From the NCBI RefSeq assembly GCF_018137965.1, contig NZ_CP073100.1, positions 3,049,754 to 3,113,753 of the forward strand: DNA of 64,000 nt. Direction: 5' to 3'. The notes under the pieces were generated by a model that worked only from the letters and a program-made list of their open reading frames with translations, had not been told where the DNA came from and did not search any database. Position 1 is the first letter of the stretch, and each line of letters opens with the position of its first letter. Of this stretch, positions 27,283 through 36,402 are shown in pieces. The translations under genes and the position numbers were made by a program. The stretch comes from Luteolibacter ambystomatis. Lineage in GTDB: Bacteria; Verrucomicrobiota; Verrucomicrobiia; Verrucomicrobiales; Akkermansiaceae.

Positions 27283-28803
27283 ATGGCCCGGCGAGCGTTG
27301 TTGATTGTGCTGGATTCGGTCGGCTGCGGGGGCGCGCCGGATGCCGCGGTCTATGGCGATGCGGGTGCAGATACCCTCGGGCATCTCTTCGAGCATCTGC
27401 CCGGACTGGAGCTTCCCCACCTGGCCTCCATCGGCCTCTACGAGGCCCTGAAGCGCACGCACCGCGCCTTTCCGCTGTCCACGCCCATGCTGCGTTCCCA
27501 TGCCTCCTACGGCATCCTCACGGAGCGTTCCACAGGCAAGGACTCCACCACCGGCCACTGGGAGCTCATGGGAGCCGTCCTCACCAGACCCTTCGCCACT
27601 TTTCCCCAATTCCCGCAGGATCTGGTGAGGGAGATCGAGCAACGCGGCGGAGCGAAATTCATCGGCAACGTGGCCGCCTCCGGCACCGAAATTCTCAAGT
27701 CGCTGGGCGGAGAACACGTCTCCACCGGCAAGCCGATCCTCTACACCAGTGCCGACAGCGTGCTCCAGATTGCCGCGCATGAGGATCCCACGATCTTCGG
27801 CTTGGAACGGCTGCTCTCCCTCTGCCGCGTGGCCCGGGAGGTGCTGGACGAGCGCGGCGTGCGCGTCGGCCGGGTGATCGCACGTCCCTTCCTCGGAGAT
27901 TCTCCCGCCACCTTCCACCGCACCGCAAACCGGCACGACTACTCGCTGCAACCACCTGTCACCACGCTGAACCGGCTGCAAAACGTCGGTGTCCAGACGA
28001 TCGGCATCGGCAAAATCGAAGACCTTTTCGCCGGTGCCGGGCTGGATGTTTCCCGGCCCACCGTCTCGAATGCGGACGGAATGACCACCATCGCCCGGCT
28101 GTGGGCGGAGCAGCGGGACCAACCGCATTTCATTTTTGCCAACCTGATCGACTTCGACAGCGTCTACGGCCACCGCCGTGATCCGGAAGGTTATGCGCGG
28201 GCGCTGCGGGAGTTCGATGACTGGCTCGGCCAGTTCATCGGCCATGTCGGTCCGAACGACCTGCTCATCGTCACCGGTGATCATGGCAACGACCCCTACC
28301 ACCGGGGTACCGACCATACCCGCGAGCAAGTACCCCTCATGGTCTTGAACGGTGAAGCCCCGGCCGACGGCACCTTCAAAGACGTGGCCACCCTGGTGGA
28401 ACGGCACCTCTTCCCGGTACCACCGGAATACTTCCAAACCGTGTTCCGGGCAGAGGCACCAGTCGGCGGCTGGCCCGATACCTTCGCGGTGGTCACCGCC
28501 TTCAACCCACGCCGGAATCCGCAGGCCTCCGCCGAGGAGAACGCTCACGCGGATCTGGAACTGCACCGCGAGCTATCCGCCCGCGGATTGCAGCCCTTCC
28601 GGGTCACGGGCGCCTCACCAGACCTGCTGCATCAAGAGCCGGGCTGGGGTTTCGACACAGCCGGTCTGGCAATGGCGGCTGAATTCGCGGCACGATTCGA
28701 CCAAGTCGCGTTCTTCCACATCGATCACGGCGGGATCTTCATCCATCCGGATGGATCGGGCACCCGCTGGCCTGCAGGTACATGGCAAGCCCGGCTGGTT
28801 TGA
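27283..28803 (+). CDS. deoB: Phosphopentomutase fused to a DUF3293-like domain
   Basis: A 506-aa protein from ATG 27283. Residues 1 to about 385 match DeoB, the Mn-dependent enzyme that interconverts ribose/deoxyribose 1- and 5-phosphates: LLIVLDSVGCGGAPDA (first metal Asp), DSTTGHWELMGAV (active-site Thr region), FANLIDFDSVYGHRRD, LIVTGDHGNDPYHRGTDHTR and VPLMVLNG. Bacterial DeoB normally ends near 390-405 aa. Here about 115 more residues continue in frame: TFAVVTAFNPRRNPQASAEE, FRVTGASPDLLHQEPGWGF and FDQVAFFHIDHGGIFIHPDG, which look like the DUF3293 family. The added domain has no known function. The gene is monocistronic, and no nucleoside phosphorylase is adjacent. Confidence 0.9.
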   Translation: MARRALLIVLDSVGCGGAPDAAVYGDAGADTLGHLFEHLPGLELPHLASIGLYEALKRTHRAFPLSTPMLRSHASYGILTERSTGKDSTTGHWELMGAVLTRPFATFPQFPQDLVREIEQRGGAKFIGNVAASGTEILKSLGGEHVSTGKPILYTSADSVLQIAAHEDPTIFGLERLLSLCRVAREVLDERGVRVGRVIARPFLGDSPATFHRTANRHDYSLQPPVTTLNRLQNVGVQTIGIGKIEDLFAGAGLDVSRPTVSNADGMTTIARLWAEQRDQPHFIFANLIDFDSVYGHRRDPEGYARALREFDDWLGQFIGHVGPNDLLIVTGDHGNDPYHRGTDHTREQVPLMVLNGEAPADGTFKDVATLVERHLFPVPPEYFQTVFRAEAPVGGWPDTFAVVTAFNPRRNPQASAEENAHADLELHRELSARGLQPFRVTGASPDLLHQEPGWGFDTAGLAMAAEFAARFDQVAFFHIDHGGIFIHPDGSGTRWPAGTWQARLV

Positions 28804-28849
28804 AAAACCACCGGGCTGCGAAATCGGACGGGCCGGACGGGCCCGGTCT

Positions 28850-29251
28850 TCAGGCCACGGATAGACGGTAGGAGAAATCCTTCCGCTGGAAGTCGGTCGG
28901 CGAGACTTCGTAAAACTGCTGGAACTCGCGGGCGAAAATCTTCGGAGACGCGAATCCGAGGTCGATGGAAACCTCTTTCACGGAATGGCCTTCACGAAGC
29001 AGGTTGCGCGCGGCAACCATGCGCTCGCGGCGCAGCCAATCCTTTGGCGTGATTCCGAGGCCTTCCTCGAAAACACGGCGCAGGTGGCGCTCGGAAATTC
29101 CGACGACCTGACACATCCGGTCAACCCGGTAGCAGGTGGTACGGGCGACCGATGCCAAGGACAAAGGCATGGGTTCTCGCGCGCATAGCACGAGGATCTG
29201 GCCGTTGCGATGAACGACCTCGACGTCACGACGTTTCACGGTTGGGGACAA
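28850..29251 (-). CDS. Small stand-alone AraC-family regulator
   Basis: About 133 aa made almost wholly of an AraC/XylS double helix-turn-helix (YRVDRMCQVVGISERHLRRV, LGITPKDWLRRERMVAARNL, VKEVSIDLGFASPKIFAREF). No sensor domain is present. There is no in-frame ATG before residue 28; the start is either TTG at 29251 or GTG at 29239. Short proteins of this type occur in Verrucomicrobia, so it need not be a fragment. It lies just downstream of the terminator that closes the Phc-like operon and in the same direction. It could act in that pathway, but this is only positional. Confidence 0.75.
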   Translation of the reverse strand: MSPTVKRRDVEVVHRNGQILVLCAREPMPLSLASVARTTCYRVDRMCQVVGISERHLRRVFEEGLGITPKDWLRRERMVAARNLLREGHSVKEVSIDLGFASPKIFAREFQQFYEVSPTDFQRKDFSYRLSVA

Positions 29252-29382
29252 GGGCTGGTTGTGAACAGGACATTGGGTGTATACCTTTAGGAACCCGAAC
29301 TGTCAAATTTACAAAAAAAGGCCTGCGGTCATTTTCCTCTTTGCCGCTCCCGTGCATATTGCCCTTTCGCGGGATGCAAAAA

Positions 29383-29410
29383 GGGCGGCAGTGCCATCGC
29401 ACTGCCGCCC
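29383..29410 (-). terminator. Strong intrinsic terminator of the Phc-like operon
   Basis: A perfect 12-bp stem (GGGCGGCAGTGC at 29383-29394, GCACTGCCGCCC at 29399-29410) with a CATC loop. On the minus strand it is followed by TTTTTGC. It lies 28 bases past the stop of the response regulator gene and marks the 3' end of the three-gene operon. Confidence 0.9.
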
Positions 29411-29438
29411 ATGAGCCGTTCCGGCAATGACCGGAAAA

Positions 29439-30488
29439 TCAGATCAGGCCAAGCGCGGACGAGATGAGGAGGTCGTCATCGAACAACCAACGGGCGGTTT
29501 CCGTGCCAGCGGCGCCAGTGGGCTTGGCGGGAGCGGTGCCCACGTCAAGGGTAAGGCCCGCCCCCCGGACGCGGCGGACGCTGCCACCGGCATCGTAGAT
29601 GGACATCAGCGCGGCGAGCGTCTTCACGGACGCCTTGGTGGCGGCGGAATCATCGCTGCGGCCCAGCAGAACGTCAATCAGTCCCGGGGTCGGGTCGGTA
29701 TCGGAGGAAAGGCGGCTGCCCTCCCCTCCTCCGGCCACACTGATTCTGGCCCCGGCGGTTTCGAGCGCGGCGGCGAGAGCCTCGGTGCGCGATGAGAGGC
29801 CATCGACCTTCAGCGCGGCGGGAAGTTCGTTTTCCAGGGCGGATGCCAGTTCCACCTGGCGATCATGCAGCTTGGCCCAATCCGGCGAACGCAGCCCGGC
29901 GTCACCACCCGAATCCCCACGGCCCGAAACCCCGATCTTGATGAAGGAGGCGACCGCCTCCCCCGCACGGTGCACCTTGATGCCGGCACAGACAGGAGCC
30001 AGGGCGAAGGCGGCGAGACGACTGGACATGAGCACGTTGCCCATGGCCTGCATCTTCGCGGACAAGAGAGCATCACGCTCGCGCTTCACGGAGAAGAACT
30101 CCATCGCGCGGCGCAGGGTCACCTCAAGCTGGGGGATGTCCCAAGGCTTGGTGATGTAGCGGAAAATGCCGCCGTCGTTCACGGAGCCGATGGCGGCATC
30201 AATGTCCGAGAAGGCGGTGGAGAGGATTTTGATGATGTCCGGATAGTCTCCGGCGATCTTCGAGAGGAAGCCCACCCCCGTCTCGTTCGGCATCCGCTGG
30301 TCGGTGACGATGATGCCGATCTCGGACGCATGGCGGCGGAACACGTCAAGCGCCTCGATGCCATCCCCGGCCTCCAGGATGCGGAACTTGTCGCCAAAGA
30401 GGCGCCGGAAGTACTTCCGGGTCTTCTCTTCGTCATCGACGAAAAGAATGGCGTAACGCTGGTAGTCGTATTGCTCGGGGTCTGGCAT
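29439..30488 (-). CDS. PhcQ-like response regulator with unusual C-terminal domain
   Basis: A 349-aa protein from ATG 30488, one base after the kinase stop. Residues 13-125 are a receiver domain: acidic pair D18-D19 (AILFVDDEEKTRKYF), phospho-acceptor D63 (IIVTDQRMPNETGVGFL), and K114 (GGIFRYITKPWD). The rest (130-349) is not a standard DNA-binding domain; it begins with an amphipathic stretch (VTLRRAMEFFSVKRERDALL) and ends with a Gly/Ala-rich region that might be a degenerate kinase-type fold. In Ralstonia, PhcQ is a response regulator of this kind, encoded last in the phcBSRQ operon and acting with the quorum-sensing kinases. The match in receiver type, position and lack of an output domain supports a PhcQ-like role, but I cannot confirm orthology. 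Confidence 0.75.
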   Translation of the reverse strand: MPDPEQYDYQRYAILFVDDEEKTRKYFRRLFGDKFRILEAGDGIEALDVFRRHASEIGIIVTDQRMPNETGVGFLSKIAGDYPDIIKILSTAFSDIDAAIGSVNDGGIFRYITKPWDIPQLEVTLRRAMEFFSVKRERDALLSAKMQAMGNVLMSSRLAAFALAPVCAGIKVHRAGEAVASFIKIGVSGRGDSGGDAGLRSPDWAKLHDRQVELASALENELPAALKVDGLSSRTEALAAALETAGARISVAGGGEGSRLSSDTDPTPGLIDVLLGRSDDSAATKASVKTLAALMSIYDAGGSVRRVRGAGLTLDVGTAPAKPTGAAGTETARWLFDDDLLISSALGLI

Positions 30489-30489
30489 G

Positions 30490-33207
30490 TCAGTCTGGGC
30501 TGGATTGAGAACTGGATGAGAGGGCTGCGACCGGCTTCTCCCCGGAGACGGGGAAAAGAAGGCGGAAGCGTGTGAACTCGCAGGGTCGGCTTTCCACTTC
30601 GACCTGGGCGCGGTGACGCTGGAGGATCTGATGGGTGATGCTGAGGCCGAGGCCCATCCCCTTCCCCACATCCTTGGATGTGAAGAACGGGTCGAAGATT
30701 TTCTGTACGTTTTCCGGCGGGATGCCAATACCGTTATCAAGGACGGTCACCATCCATGAATTGCCGGCGGACTCGATGGAGACGTCCAGCGCTCCGGCGA
30801 CCTTGTCCGAGGGGTCCGCCTCATTGCGCATCCGGATGGCATCAATGCTGTTCTGGAACAGGTTGATGAAGACCTGGACGAGCTGGTTGGTATTGCCGCA
30901 GATCGGAGCCATCGTGGGCGCGTCCACCTTGAGAGTCACGTCGTGGCCCATCTGGTGGCTGACCATGCGGCGGGAACGCTCGACCACGTCCACAAGATCG
31001 GCATCGCCATCCACGCCGGGATCTTCACGGGTGAACTGGCGCAGGTCCGCGATGATCTGGGAAACGCGCTCCACGCCCTCGCGGATGTCTCCGACGATGT
31101 CCGCATAGTCCTCGCGATCATCCTCCGGCAGCGAGCGGGAGAATGTCTCCAACGCGTGGAGGCCGGCGCGGGAGTAGTTCAGCGGGTTGTTGATCTCATG
31201 GATCAGCCCCGCGCTCATGCGGCCGAGGGCGGAGAGCTTTTCGTTCCGGATCAGCAGCACCTCGTTCTCCTTGATCTGGTCGAGGGCGGCCTGGAGTTCG
31301 TGGTTGAGGTCCGACATCTCGCGGCGGATGCGCGCCATGGCGAGCTGGTTTTCCAAGCGCAGCGACAGCTCCGCGGTGGAGAAAGGCTTGGTCAGGAAGT
31401 CGCTGGCACCGGCCTCCAGCGCGGCGAGCTTGGTCTGTTCATCAGCGCGGGCGGTTAGAATGATGACCGAGACACCGCGGGTGGCATGGTGATCGCGGAT
31501 GCCCTTGCAGACTTCCACGCCGTCCATCTCCGGCATCATGTGGTCGAGAAGGGCGAGCTGCGGCTGGTGCTGGCGCGCGAGTTGAAGGGCCTGTGCTCCA
31601 TCGCCCGCCTCGATGACATCCACGTCATCCATCTGCATGCGCAGGAAGCGGCGGATGTCCGGCTCGTCATCCGCGATGAGGACGAGCGGGCGGACACCGG
31701 TGCGACGCCCGATCGACATCGGCTGCTTCGCGCCATAGCCATTGACCGGCGACTGGACCGGTGCGGCGCGTGAGGGTATGGAGAGCGCGGCCTTGCGGTG
31801 GAAATCGGCGATCACCCCGCCGTCCGACTCGACTTCCTCCTCCGGCTCGTCCGCCGCTTTGGCCGGGGCGGCCTGGACCGGAAAATGGACGCGGAAGGTG
31901 GTGCCGTGGCCCACCTGGCTTTCCACCTTCACCTCCCCTTCCATCGCCTCCGCCAGGCTGCGGACCAAGGCGAGACCGATGCCCGCACCCTGGAACTTGC
32001 GGGTCGAGGAAGTATCGACCTGCCAGAAGCGTTCGAAGATATGTTCCAGGACCTCCGGAGCAATCCCGACTCCGGTGTCCGCCACCGAGAGCTGGAGCAT
32101 GCCGTCCGACACTTCCGTGATGACCTCGATGCTGCCGCCGGACGGGGTGAACTTGATGGCGTTCACCACCAGGTTGAGCACGATCTTGTCGAACTTGTCG
32201 CGGTCGACCATCCATGCATCGCCGCCGCGGACCTGCCAAACGAGGGCCACATGGTCCTGCTCCGCGAGGTGGCGGAGGGAACGCAGCATGCCATCCAGAT
32301 GCGGCTGGAGGTCCGTGGCCTGGCGGACGACATCGGCGTGGCCGGTGTCGAAGCGGACGAGGTCGAGGAGGTCGTCGATGAGCTTGAGAAGGCGCAGGCC
32401 GTTGTGCCCGAGCAAGGTGGTCATTTCCGCACCGCGCGGATCGTTCTGCAGCGGCGGCAGTTTCGCCAGCCGCTCGGTGATGCCGAGCATCACGGTGAGA
32501 GGCGTGCGCAGTTCGTGGCTGATGTTTGCGAAGAAGCGGGTCTTGGCTTCGTCCAGTTCACTGAGCTGGCGGTTCTGGGACTCGAGCTGGGTTCGGGCTT
32601 CCTCCACCTCCTTGCGCAGCACGAACTCCCGGAAACGCAGCCGCTCATAGGCGTGGTTCCCCACCAGCACGAAGACCGCGGTGACGAAGAGGAAGTAGGA
32701 GTTGTTGAAAAGGATCCGGCCGTTCGCCTCGTGATTGTCCACCATGACCGCCACCGCGAAGAACACGAAGCACAACAGCACCATCACCAGGGTCCGCCGG
32801 AACGACCAGCGCAGCAGGATCGACAGCCCCAGCAGCACCAGATTCAAACCCGCGTAGTAGGGCGAATCACCACCACCGGTCAGTGCGATCATCGCGCAGA
32901 TCGCCAAGGTCGGAAGACCGGGGATGGCTTGGGAAATCCAAGCCGGAGGGCGCTTCACCGCCGCGCGGGAAAGCAGGAAGAACACCACGCCCAGCAACAG
33001 CGAGCTGAATGCCCGCAGACCGAGGAATTTCCAAGCCAGTTCCGGATACACCACCCAGTCCAGGGAAGCTCCGGCGAGCATGAACAATCCGGCGAGCACG
33101 GCGGCGCGACGGTCGTTCGCCACGGCCACGTCGTATTCGTAGTCGCGGAACTGTTGTTCCAGCACGGCGGGATCCACCGCCTTCTGGCTCTGGACCGGAT
33201 CAGCCAT
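30490..33207 (-). CDS. Double histidine kinase with central receiver, PhcS-PhcR-like fusion
   Basis: A 905-aa membrane protein. Six hydrophobic helices fill residues about 35-185. Then comes a first kinase: H-box H231 ([17 protein letters not shown]), and HATPase with [22 protein letters not shown] and GAGIGLALV (about 340-440). After an acidic linker is a receiver (505-620) with D555 ([13 protein letters not shown]) and K607 (DFLTKPFS). A second kinase follows, with H670 ([18 protein letters not shown]) and HATPase to about 880 ([29 protein letters not shown]). In Ralstonia, PhcS is a membrane kinase and PhcR a receiver-kinase; this protein equals the two joined end to end. Its start overlaps the methyltransferase gene by eight bases. 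The likely signal is a fatty acid methyl ester sensed by the membrane part, which is inference. Confidence 0.85.
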
Positions 33208-34615
33208 TTCCGACTTCGATATCCAGGAACAGGTTCACACCGGTGGCATCCGCGGTGATGGTGGTGGACTTGATCGGGACGTTGTCAGGCACCAGATCCT
33301 CCATCTCACTGTTGTCACGATAGATGAGATTCCATTCCATCAGATACTCCATCCAGGCTTTGCGCGGGTTGCTGGCCGCCACGTTGGTGACGATCACCCG
33401 GCCCCCCGGCTTTACCATGGTGGCGAACAACTCGACCAGCTTCTTGCACACGCGCTGGGAAAGATAATCGAAAAGACCGGCGCAATAGACCACGTCATAG
33501 CCCGTGAATTCCTCCTCACCTCCCTGCGAAGCGGCACGCAGCAACTGGTGGACCGACCGCTGGAAGTAACGGACCGCGGTTTCACGGCCACCGGCCATGC
33601 GCGCCTCCTGGATGCGCTCGCGGGTGTATTCCAGCGTTTCCGCGTTGAAGTCCAACAGGTCGATCTCGATCAGGTCGCTCTCGTCGTGTTCACGCAGGAA
33701 GCGCTGGATCTCGACGGCAGGTCCGCAGGCGAGGTTGAAGACGCGGGTCCGCGCACGGCCGACGCGGCTGCGGGTCTCGCGGATCAATGTCTCGATGAGA
33801 TAGTCGATGCGATTGCGGTGGGCCACCACGGGCTCGGTGTGGAGCAATGCGAAGTTGAGAATTTTCGCAAAGGCCGAAGAACCTTCGTAGGGATTCCTCA
33901 ACATCATGTTCACCATCTCATAGTCACCGGCATATCCGAGCGGCTTGGTGTAGGTGCGGTAGAGGAATGGCGAGCACAACACGATCGGATGCAACTCGCG
34001 TCGGACGTAGGACTTGTGGACGGCGGACTCCTCATCACCGACCTCGCGCGCGACCTTCTCGAAGCGCTCCATCGACGGCAGCACTTCCTCCACCACCCGG
34101 GCCTGGACGTTCGAGAAAATCTCCTGCTCCAGTTCATCCCGGCGGCGCGTGACCGTGGTGCGGATACCCACATCCACCCCGGTGAGCCAGTGCTGCACGC
34201 CATTGAGCATGTTCGCCATGTCCGCCACCACCAGCTTGAAAGGGTCCTGGACCTGGTTTGCGGACTTCCACTCCGTCATGAAGGACGTGAACTGGCCGCC
34301 GATGTCGGCATTGCCCGCAACGGACGAGAGGAAATCGACCTCGACCCAGCCTTCATCGAGCGTGGCTTCGCAAACGAGGACGATGCCGGTATTCAACAAG
34401 TTGCTGATCACGGCCTTGCCGTGGTAGAGCAACCGCCTCGAGGCCATGATCCGGAAGTCGGAAAGGACTTCGGAGAGCTGGAGGATACTATAGGGGTTGT
34501 ATACCTCGAAAACGACGGAGTACCGCTTGATTCTCAGCAAGTTGGCTGTCAGCTCTGTCCCTTGGCTATTGCGGCACGTAATGACGCTTTGTGAGGTGTC
34601 CCCAACGAGTTCCAT
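33200..34615 (-). CDS. PhcB-like SAM-dependent methyltransferase with N-terminal PilZ-like region
   Basis: About 471 aa from ATG 34615; a TTG at 34633 would add six residues. The C-terminal half is a class I methyltransferase: KPLGYAGDYEMVNMMLRNPY (about 223-242), SAM motif I FNLACGPAVEIQRFL (about 292-306), acidic motif IEIDLLDFNAETLEYTRERI, DVVYCAGLFDYLSQRVCKKL and KPGGRVIVTNVA. I recognise this as the family annotated as extracellular factor (3-hydroxypalmitic acid methyl ester) biosynthesis protein, of which Ralstonia PhcB is the known member; PhcB methylates a 3-hydroxy fatty acid to make the quorum signal. The first ~110 residues may be a degenerate PilZ-like barrel (RIKRYSVVFEVYNPY) without clear c-di-GMP motifs, followed by helices. 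First gene of the operon, overlapping the kinase gene by eight bases. Confidence 0.8.
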   Translation of the reverse strand: MELVGDTSQSVITCRNSQGTELTANLLRIKRYSVVFEVYNPYSILQLSEVLSDFRIMASRRLLYHGKAVISNLLNTGIVLVCEATLDEGWVEVDFLSSVAGNADIGGQFTSFMTEWKSANQVQDPFKLVVADMANMLNGVQHWLTGVDVGIRTTVTRRRDELEQEIFSNVQARVVEEVLPSMERFEKVAREVGDEESAVHKSYVRRELHPIVLCSPFLYRTYTKPLGYAGDYEMVNMMLRNPYEGSSAFAKILNFALLHTEPVVAHRNRIDYLIETLIRETRSRVGRARTRVFNLACGPAVEIQRFLREHDESDLIEIDLLDFNAETLEYTRERIQEARMAGGRETAVRYFQRSVHQLLRAASQGGEEEFTGYDVVYCAGLFDYLSQRVCKKLVELFATMVKPGGRVIVTNVAASNPRKAWMEYLMEWNLIYRDNSEMEDLVPDNVPIKSTTITADATGVNLFLDIEVGNG

Positions 34616-34759
34616 TGCTTTTGTTAAATTCAAGAAGTTCTAAACCGGCGGGGCGCCACCTCCGCCATTACGCGATCACGTTGCAAACCCGTGCGACGTA
34701 AGCAGGTCGCCCACCAAAAGACAACAAAGGTCATGCTGGATGGCCATTTTGCCACCGAT

Positions 34760-35437
34760 TCAATGAATTTCAGGCAGACCGACTTTCTCACCAAGATGCC
34801 TCGGACGCGTTCCGAGCACGCGGACATCAAGCCACATTTTCACCCGCGCACCAATCTCGCGGAGGTGGGTCTTGTATCCCCCCCTGCCCTCGACATCCCG
34901 CGCATTGTAACCCACGGCATCAATGCCATGAGCCTCTGCCAGATAGATCGCACGCTCGTTCTGAAATCGCTGGGTGATGAACACGATCTCCGTCACCCCG
35001 AACACCTCCTTGGCCCGGACTACGGAATCCAGGGTCCGCAGTCCGGCGAAGTCTCCGACAATGCGGTCCGTGGGCACGCCGTGCGCCACCAAAGCCTGTC
35101 TCATCGCCTCCGGCTCGTTGTAATTCCGCTCCCGATTGTCCCCGGAAACGATCACGAAATCGATTTTTCCCGCTTTCCACAGATCCGCGGCAGCATCGAT
35201 CCGGTAGCGGAAATAAAGGTTCTCCCGTCCCTCGATACGATGGTCACAGCCAAACACCAGACCGGCACGGCGGTGCGGAACGGACGCGGCATCATTGAAC
35301 AGCCGTCCGCGGGAAGCGATCATCGGAGCGACATTCGCATACCCCACGAACAAGACGACGAGCAGGATCACCAGACCGCACGCTTTCAGGAAACGGCGCA
35401 GGTACCGCTTCCACCTGGATGGAGCCTGCCCCTTCAT
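34760..35437 (-). CDS. SanA-like DUF218 membrane protein
   Basis: A 225-aa protein; ATG 35437 overlaps the lipid kinase stop by four bases (ATGA). A basic start and one transmembrane helix (RFLKACGLVILLVVLFVGYA, about residues 14-34) precede a DUF218 domain: RRAGLVFGCDHR, IDFVIVSGDNRERNYNEPEA, GLRTLDSVVRAKEVFGV and EIVFITQRFQNERAIYLAEA. SanA of E. coli affects envelope permeability and vancomycin exclusion at high temperature; DUF218 proteins are thought to act in cell wall or lipid carrier metabolism. It is the last gene of the ECF sigma operon. Confidence 0.88.
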   Translation of the reverse strand: MKGQAPSRWKRYLRRFLKACGLVILLVVLFVGYANVAPMIASRGRLFNDAASVPHRRAGLVFGCDHRIEGRENLYFRYRIDAAADLWKAGKIDFVIVSGDNRERNYNEPEAMRQALVAHGVPTDRIVGDFAGLRTLDSVVRAKEVFGVTEIVFITQRFQNERAIYLAEAHGIDAVGYNARDVEGRGGYKTHLREIGARVKMWLDVRVLGTRPRHLGEKVGLPEIH

Positions 35438-36402
35438 GCGCCCGCCTTGGTGGCCGGATCGGCAATCCGTTTCGGCCACAACATCATCGCCTTCATCACC
35501 TCGACAAAGCGGCTGCCCGGCAGCGGATCTTCCGGCGCGAGCACGCGGAGACGGCGCGGGCTTTCCGAGAAGCACACCTTGCGCGCGCGGCCGAGCAATT
35601 CGCCATCCACCTGGACCGGCACCTCACGTTCGGCGATGACGGTGAAGTCCTCCGACTGGAAATACTCGGTGGAGGCAGCCAGATCCACGCCACCCAGCGC
35701 AAGCCCCTTGAGAGAATCGAGCACCAGCTTGTAACCCGCTTCCTTGAACACGAGCACATCAAGCATCGAGTCCTGGTTGTCCGCCATCCGGAAGAGGCGG
35801 AACTGGCCGCCGTAGAGAGAACCATTCCCCGCGAGCACGGCCACGCCTTCCACGCGGCGACCATCGCGGCAAATCACTTCCATGCGCGGCGGCTTCTCGC
35901 CCAGCACCTTCACTGCGGAAAGCAGATAGGCCAGCGGCCCAAGCATCTTCTTGGTTTCCCAGGTGGTTTCCTCGATGACCATCGCATCGAAGCCCACCCC
36001 GGCCATCTGCATGAAGGGCGCACGGTTCGCCTCGAACAAATCGATCTCACGAACATGGCCGCGCTCGATCACCTCGAAGGCCTTGAGGAGATTGTCGTAA
36101 GGAATGCCAAGTTCGCGGGCGAAAACGTTCATCGTTCCAGCGGGCAGCACGCCCAACGCCGTTTGCGATCCCGCCAACCCGGACACCACCGCATTGAGAG
36201 TGCCATCACCACCGGCGGCGATCACCACCGGCTCGCCTTCCGCCGCGAAACGCGATGCCAGATCGCGGGCTTCATCAGACGAATTGGTGGCGCAGAGGTA
36301 GAACCGGTTGGAGTGTTCCATCAGGAAACGGAACGTCCGCTGCCCCCTCTGGCTTCTCGCCTTCGGGTTGAACAGCAGCGGATAGCGCGGCGGAAATGCC
36401 AT
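35434..36402 (-). CDS. Diacylglycerol kinase-family lipid kinase
   Basis: A 322-aa protein of the DagK/YegS/LCB5 family from ATG 36402. The nucleotide-binding motif GGDGTLNAVVSGL is at about residues 63-75, preceded by YPLLFNPKARSQRGQ and followed by LGVLPAGTMNVFARELGIP and FMQMAGVGFDAMVIEETTW. The C-terminal beta domain has DSMLDVLVFKEAG and VPVQVDGELLG. It would phosphorylate a lipid such as diacylglycerol, undecaprenol or a sphingoid base. It sits between maf and the SanA-like gene with a four-base overlap to the latter. Confidence 0.92.
   Translation of the reverse strand: MAFPPRYPLLFNPKARSQRGQRTFRFLMEHSNRFYLCATNSSDEARDLASRFAAEGEPVVIAAGGDGTLNAVVSGLAGSQTALGVLPAGTMNVFARELGIPYDNLLKAFEVIERGHVREIDLFEANRAPFMQMAGVGFDAMVIEETTWETKKMLGPLAYLLSAVKVLGEKPPRMEVICRDGRRVEGVAVLAGNGSLYGGQFRLFRMADNQDSMLDVLVFKEAGYKLVLDSLKGLALGGVDLAASTEYFQSEDFTVIAEREVPVQVDGELLGRARKVCFSESPRRLRVLAPEDPLPGSRFVEVMKAMMLWPKRIADPATKAGA

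Follow-up and report, generated by a model that had tools for sequence, protein, structure and literature searches.

Phc signalling in Ralstonia and the locus in Luteolibacter

Phc signalling has been called Ralstonia-specific (PMC8578825); the phc genes are also described as conserved in Cupriavidus (PMC2864759). PhcS is reported to be phosphorylated at H230 (PMC11960443), PhcR to consist of a receiver and a kinase, and PhcQ to be a receiver protein (PMC8578825). Here, a stretch of 64,000 nucleotides from Luteolibacter ambystomatis (contig NZ_CP073100.1, positions 3,049,754 to 3,113,753), referred to below as the window, was analyzed. It carries three adjacent minus-strand genes for a methyltransferase, a sensor kinase, and a regulator (the trio). 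Membership of the trio in the Phc type is well supported by its architecture, with Ralstonia and Cupriavidus likened to it through published data. The locus is probably a Phc-type cell-density circuit, in which a FadL-family channel would serve as the signal port and an AraC-type protein would take the place of PhcA. Four points are reported as new: the association of the trio with FadL and AraC genes, the conserved kinase fusion, the occurrence of the trio in several phyla, and a likely descent of PhcQ from a kinase.

The features of the locus are listed below, one per line.

33200..34615 (ATG start) or 34633 (TTG start), minus strand: PhcB-like class I S-adenosylmethionine methyltransferase (open reading frame (ORF) calls, homologues, and tree)
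30490-33207, minus strand: fused kinase gene, 905 residues (ORF calls and Pfam)
31843..33207, boundary approximate, minus strand: PhcS-like half, with a MASE8-like sensor region (residues about 50-202), HisKA (H231), and HATPase
30490..31695, boundary approximate, minus strand: PhcR-like half, with a receiver (residues 509-617), a second HisKA (H670, HEINNP), and HATPase
29439..30488, minus strand: PhcQ-like regulator, 349 residues, with a receiver and a probably decayed, kinase-related C-terminal part
29383..29410, minus strand: intrinsic terminator, with a perfect 12-bp stem and a 4-nt loop, then TTTTT
28850..29239 (GTG start), minus strand: stand-alone AraC-type helix-turn-helix (HTH) regulator, the candidate output protein (ORF list and Pfam)

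An earlier note on this DNA, made from its letters alone, had described three minus-strand genes that overlap by 8 bases at one junction and are 1 base apart at the other, a perfect terminator behind them, a membrane kinase continuing into a receiver-kinase, and a response regulator without a DNA-binding domain. The coordinates agree with this description: the methyltransferase and kinase ORFs overlap at 33200-33207, and a single base (30489) separates the kinase from the regulator. The terminator was confirmed as well. Four terminator-like matches occur in 28700-35600, of which the one at 29383-29410 alone has 12 pairs, and the others have 5-6; shuffled sequence gave a mean of 5.4 matches in the same test. 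Pfam analysis bore out both protein descriptions. The kinase gene has HisKA and HATPase twice and one receiver, in the order membrane region, HisKA and HATPase, receiver, HisKA and HATPase, and the third gene shows only one receiver. Judged by its domains, the second gene is PhcS and PhcR fused in one chain. The MASE8 match of its sensor region fell just short of the cut-off in one search (26.0 versus 26.2 bits), and reached 30.9 bits in another. The methyltransferase has a single match within its own genome, which is one contig of 5.32 Mb. The AraC-type gene, which had no mention in the earlier note, is the next gene downstream of the operon on the same strand. Its start is taken to be GTG 29239, a position occupied by ATG in some relatives; in the ORF list it starts at TTG 29251.

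Comparison with the Ralstonia and Cupriavidus genes

The window resembles the Phc systems of Ralstonia and Cupriavidus in gene order, in the length of a methyltransferase with an extra N-terminal part, and in having a membrane kinase, a receiver-kinase, and a receiver protein without a DNA-binding domain. It differs from them in that PhcS and PhcR are fused, with no separate PhcR gene, and in that the LysR gene is absent at the window locus, where an AraC-type regulator and FadL are associated with the trio. The order phcB-phcS-phcR-phcQ, which had been proposed in the earlier note, thus holds with S and R in one gene, and is consistent with the order in Paraburkholderia graminis and with the spacing and residue positions of Ralstonia.

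Gene-start distances in Ralstonia GMI1000 were computed from the mutations tabulated by Tang et al. (PMC6989110), on the assumption that R-to-C changes affect the first codon base and L-to-R changes the second, and that coordinates increase along the genes. The distances are 1417 bp for phcB-phcS and 2523 bp for phcS-phcQ; those in the window are 1426 bp (TTG) or 1408 bp (ATG), and then 2719 bp. The window methyltransferase, with 471-477 residues depending on the start, fits the length of about 470 residues that the 1417-bp spacing implies for Ralstonia PhcB (PMC6989110). The kinase histidine is H231 in the window and H233 in P. graminis, compared with H230 in Ralstonia, a position that does not discriminate on its own. 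By position, R154 of Ralstonia PhcQ, which lies outside the receiver (PMC6989110), corresponds to R157 in both the window and P. graminis. R157 is invariant in 36/36 aligned PhcQ-like homologues. The equivalent of PhcB R22 could not be placed, since the P. graminis protein has two candidates, R14 and R22.

No LysR gene was found at the locus, as the earlier note had stated for a PhcA-like regulator. That statement holds for the locus, although a candidate DNA-binding protein of the AraC type adjoins the operon and tracks it. Elsewhere in the genome there are 11 LysR_substrate matches (10 over the cut-off), and a PhcA may be encoded there.

Methyltransferase relatives and the P. graminis operon

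A comparison at the sequence level came from plasmids, which were searched with the window methyltransferase, the window regulator, and the P. graminis methyltransferase. The window methyltransferase matched 141 plasmid records. A single one of them covers at least 80% of the query, namely the methyltransferase of P. graminis pPHS1_P (NZ_CP024936), with 38% identity over 96% of the query; the other 59 of the 60 matches listed cover 48-65% of the query, in the catalytic part. None of the three queries found a full-length plasmid match besides P. graminis. The pPHS1_P genes are in the order methyltransferase, kinase, regulator, regulator, which is the succession of parts seen in the window. Between the two loci, identity is 29% for the kinase membrane regions (E 3e-19) and 42% for the PhcQ-like receivers. 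About 10 kb from the P. graminis operon there is an AraC-family gene (395 codons), and no FadL was found among the annotated genes and clustered ORFs of the 25-kb stretch. In L002:9919-25365, the operon is flanked by a cyclopropane-fatty-acid synthase-like gene on one side, and on the other by a PelD-annotated gene and further genes reminiscent of a pel exopolysaccharide cluster.

A methyltransferase tree with 31 rows places the P. graminis enzyme together with the trio enzymes of Verrucomicrobiota, FCPU426, and Omnitrophota (support 95/92), and the row nearest to the window enzyme is that of Luteolibacter pohnpeiensis (83%). Receiver-methyltransferase fusions and short methyltransferases fall outside the trio clade. 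In Pfam and NCBIfam, the enzyme had only weak, generic matches to class I methyltransferases, which did not reach the Pfam cut-offs, and neither database gave the name PhcB. The PhcB-type family named in the earlier note is supported in part: the window enzyme shares a clade with that of P. graminis, and other homologues lie outside.

The window and P. graminis enzymes have an N-terminal domain in common. In the structural model, this part is predicted to have about six strands, N-terminal to the helical and methyltransferase parts. Fold searches with the methyltransferase returned methyltransferases throughout, and the N-terminal domain was left unnamed. A resemblance to a PilZ barrel was unconfirmed, as Pfam found nothing in this segment even at E 10.

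Distribution of the trio

The scan of named genomes identified at least 514 methyltransferase relatives, and the best 80 were kept; these are the 80 loci referred to below. The kinase frame starts at most 500 bp from the methyltransferase end in 78/80 loci. The two exceptions are L096, whose contig ends before the kinase, and L116, whose kinase is 1.7 kb away. The regulator follows the kinase in 62/80 loci; for the remaining 18, the contig breaks off in the last frame or at most 136 bases from it. Conservation of the neighbourhood in Verrucomicrobiota, which the earlier note had named as a point to check, was thus found for both genes. The kinase fusion is conserved as well. Among the 61 loci where the regulator follows an unsplit kinase frame, this frame has a median length of 913 codons and spans 873-1107 codons, apart from the one-module kinases of L075 (523 codons) and L088 (476 codons); in the 62nd locus (L059), the kinase is split over two overlapping frames.

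The 80 loci are labelled as Verrucomicrobiota or its members, FCPU426 (L089 and L127), and Omnitrophota (L090), and L116 is labelled merely as a bacterium. An even draw of 383 genomes over the phylum gave a methyltransferase match in 35, with E <1e-100 in 25. The trio is widespread in Verrucomicrobiota. No description of a Phc system in this phylum was found among the papers listed from an open-licence library. The earlier expectation that it would be little described holds for those papers, and the trio itself is common in genomes of the phylum.

Association with FadL channels

Clustering of neighbouring genes took in the 80 loci, the window, and P. graminis. One neighbour family occurs at 38 loci, all among the 80, and 38/38 members match PF03349 (OMPP1/FadL/TodX, Toluene_X) at E 0.001 or better. 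Their position relative to the trio is variable: 15 are upstream on the same strand, 11 downstream on the same strand, 8 downstream on the opposite strand, and 4 upstream on the opposite strand. The adjacent FadL genes span 11/19 methyltransferase clusters. In the L. ambystomatis genome, a single gene matches PF03349 (161.8 bits, above the cut-off). It lies 93 kb from the trio, and its product is 57-59% identical to the trio-adjacent FadLs of L082, L083, L085, and L104.

Co-occurrence was examined in a draw of 37 genomes from the genus, with the short methyltransferases of G002 and G012 left uncounted. The methyltransferase is intact in 13 genomes and present as a broken copy in G033. A FadL sequence was found in 14/14 of these genomes (13 intact and the G033 remnant) versus 2/23 others (Fisher 2e-8). 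The two genomes with FadL and no methyltransferase are G020, which is 59% complete, and G029, where the match is weaker. Adding the three genus members of the phylum draw gave 15/16 versus 2/24 (5e-8). In the phylum draw without the genus, the figures are 15/21 versus 148/356 (p 0.007). The FadLs of the genus form four groups that are at most 45% identical to one another (11 of 13 entries recovered; one of the two in G016 and that of G028 were missing from this comparison), and different FadLs are therefore paired with the system.

In G033 (L049:6831-7966), the truncated methyltransferase runs straight into a FadL remnant on the opposite strand. This genome seems to have lost the system by one deletion.

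The AraC-type regulator and the kinship of the genomes

AraC-type genes adjoin the trio or lie near it in 17/80 loci and in the window, and ten are upstream and divergent. The AraC-type HTH is a common family, and some of these neighbours may be there by chance. Orthologues of the window protein were searched for in the 37 genomes of the genus draw, but not in G268, G305, and G410, and were separated from paralogues at a cut-off of at least 87 bits that was chosen after viewing the scores (next genome best 72); they occur in 13/13 intact-trio genomes versus 1/24 others (G020; Fisher 4e-9). In G001, G009, G030, and G035, a distance of 61-220 bp separates the AraC gene from the FadL gene, and the trio is on another contig.

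A ClpB tree was built with 30 of the 37 genus genomes, including 11 of the 13 intact-trio ones. On this tree, presence of the trio requires 9 changes, of which 8 are forced by well-supported branches. Label shuffles gave as low a number in 291/500 cases, so the trio is no more clustered than in the shuffles. Since the trio is scattered over the tree, its joint occurrence with FadL and AraC is not explained by near relatedness, and phylogenetic inertia as the cause was unsupported.

Origin of the PhcQ C-terminal part

The C-terminal part of PhcQ is termed uncharacterised in PMC6989110. Behind the receiver, Pfam analysis of the 36 aligned PhcQ-like homologues showed HATPase_c in 13/36 and HisKA in 5/36; neither was matched in the window's own PhcQ-like protein. 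In the alignment, several homologues have a AAGLSHHIRNSL-type H-box and a DNGPGLP-type ATPase motif, and both are lost in the window protein and its close relatives. Because of the family alignment and the Pfam matches, the PhcQ-like protein is likely a decayed receiver-histidine kinase. The structural model is predicted with confidence over most of the C-terminal part. A fold search of the protein was dominated by receivers, and the C-terminal part was barely probed by it. The same origin for Ralstonia PhcQ is a conjecture. Such an origin would explain the uncharacterised part of that protein.

Several loci have an extra gene resembling a receiver-histidine kinase after the PhcQ-like gene: L089 (two frames), L090, L098, L102, L104, L109, L117, and L128. 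For this similarity, Pfam was run on L104 only.

Proposed circuit and alternative explanations

The gene content, the domain order, the conservation of the trio, and its linkage and co-occurrence with FadL and AraC are direct observations, and the circuit would work as follows. By homology, the methyltransferase would methylate a long-chain, probably 3-hydroxylated, fatty acid to the methyl ester. This hydrophobic signal may recross the outer membrane through the FadL-family channel, as the linkage and co-occurrence suggest. The membrane region of the fused kinase would then sense it, and the domains are consistent with phosphate passing from H231 to the receiver, or via the second module (H670) to the PhcQ-like receiver, or both. 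Without a DNA-binding domain of its own, the PhcQ-like protein would act on the AraC-type regulator encoded next to the operon. In Ralstonia, PhcQ is reported to bind the LysR regulator PhcA and to stabilise it (PMC13320629), and the AraC-type protein is therefore a candidate substitute. A FadL protein has also been reported to import long-chain acyl-homoserine lactone (AHL) signals in Sinorhizobium (PMC9938287). The likeness is a FadL-family channel with a long-chain signal; the difference is that AHLs belong to another signalling family.

A broader reading is tentative and falls somewhat short of probable. The Phc-type circuit may be old, and repeatedly gained and lost in Verrucomicrobiota and neighbouring phyla, with a dedicated FadL that admits the lipid signal, a stand-alone AraC-type protein that does the job of PhcA after being stabilised or activated by PhcQ, and a PhcQ derived from a receiver-histidine kinase.

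Several observations weigh against the proposed circuit. The comparison with Ralstonia and Cupriavidus is built on published coordinates and residue numbers, not on sequences. The P. graminis operon departs from the window in parts: its kinase has the sensor directly joined to a module of the second-kinase type (HEVNNP), its third gene is a separate bare receiver, and the C-terminal parts of the two PhcQ-like proteins have zero BLAST similarity. The branch of the P. graminis methyltransferase is long, and its position inside the trio clade is unsure. FadL was unseen in the available flanks of 42/80 loci, of which 21 have short flanks. G305, a single contig that is 98% complete, has the methyltransferase, and FadL was not found in it. 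In the whole phylum draw the association is modest, with FadL over the cut-off in 18/25 methyltransferase-positive genomes versus 148/358 others (p 0.003); the remaining 7/25 positive genomes are without it. The choice of cut-off and the scope of the AraC search count on the same side. Furthermore, Cupriavidus metallidurans carries all the phc genes, and 3-hydroxypalmitic acid methyl ester could not be purified from it (PMC2864759); thus the genes do not fix the signal.

Among the alternatives, sensing of environmental lipids or hydrophobic compounds, rather than quorum sensing, is the strongest, although it is unlikely. In this case, FadL would import the compound, the kinase would sense it, and the methyltransferase would modify or detoxify it. 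FadL channels import fatty acids and hydrocarbons. The FadL linkage fits either explanation. However, both the order of the operon and its PhcQ-type regulator correspond to a system in which the methyltransferase makes the ligand, and the kinase gene adjoins the methyltransferase gene in nearly all of the 80 loci (78/80, as given above).

In a second alternative, which is quite improbable, the substrate of the methyltransferase would be a protein or a different small molecule, and the receiver would target the enzyme itself, so that the locus would be a phospho-controlled modification system. PhcB-related receiver-methyltransferase fusions do occur in related genomes (L019:889-2946, L021:580-2448, and L024:1486-3504), and behind the L019 fusion come a long fused kinase and then a regulator (L045). 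These fusions suggest that a receiver may control the methyltransferase itself. In addition, signal production is reported to be lowered in Ralstonia PhcQ mutants (PMC6989110). On the other hand, the fusions lie outside the trio clade, the FadL association points to a lipid, and feedback on synthesis is compatible with quorum sensing.

It is hardly credible, and less so than either of these, that the name is inflated and that a generic class I methyltransferase lies beside a generic two-component system unrelated to Phc: the family matches are weak and generic and Ralstonia PhcB was likened through published data, but the N-terminal domain common with the P. graminis enzyme, the four-gene order there, the tree, and the agreement of the spacing and of the histidine and arginine positions with the Ralstonia data argue against it.

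If the Verrucomicrobiota operons work as the Phc-type circuit does, several phyla would share signalling by fatty-acid methyl esters, and cultivated, presumably harmless species such as Luteolibacter pohnpeiensis (L067) and Brevifollis gellanilyticus (L107) could be used for its study. The FadL link points to a candidate entry route for fatty-acid methyl ester signals.

Other observations

A DUF218/SanA-like gene lies upstream of the operon on the same strand (window 34760-35575, minus strand); it is not among the recurrent neighbours listed. In two loci, the full-length methyltransferase is immediately preceded by another, short one with 26% identity (L005:314-1213 in G030, and L053:6811-7710). 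On a Pseudanabaena plasmid (L170:4049-6668), the gene of a short PhcB-related methyltransferase converges on those of a sensor kinase and a single-domain regulator.

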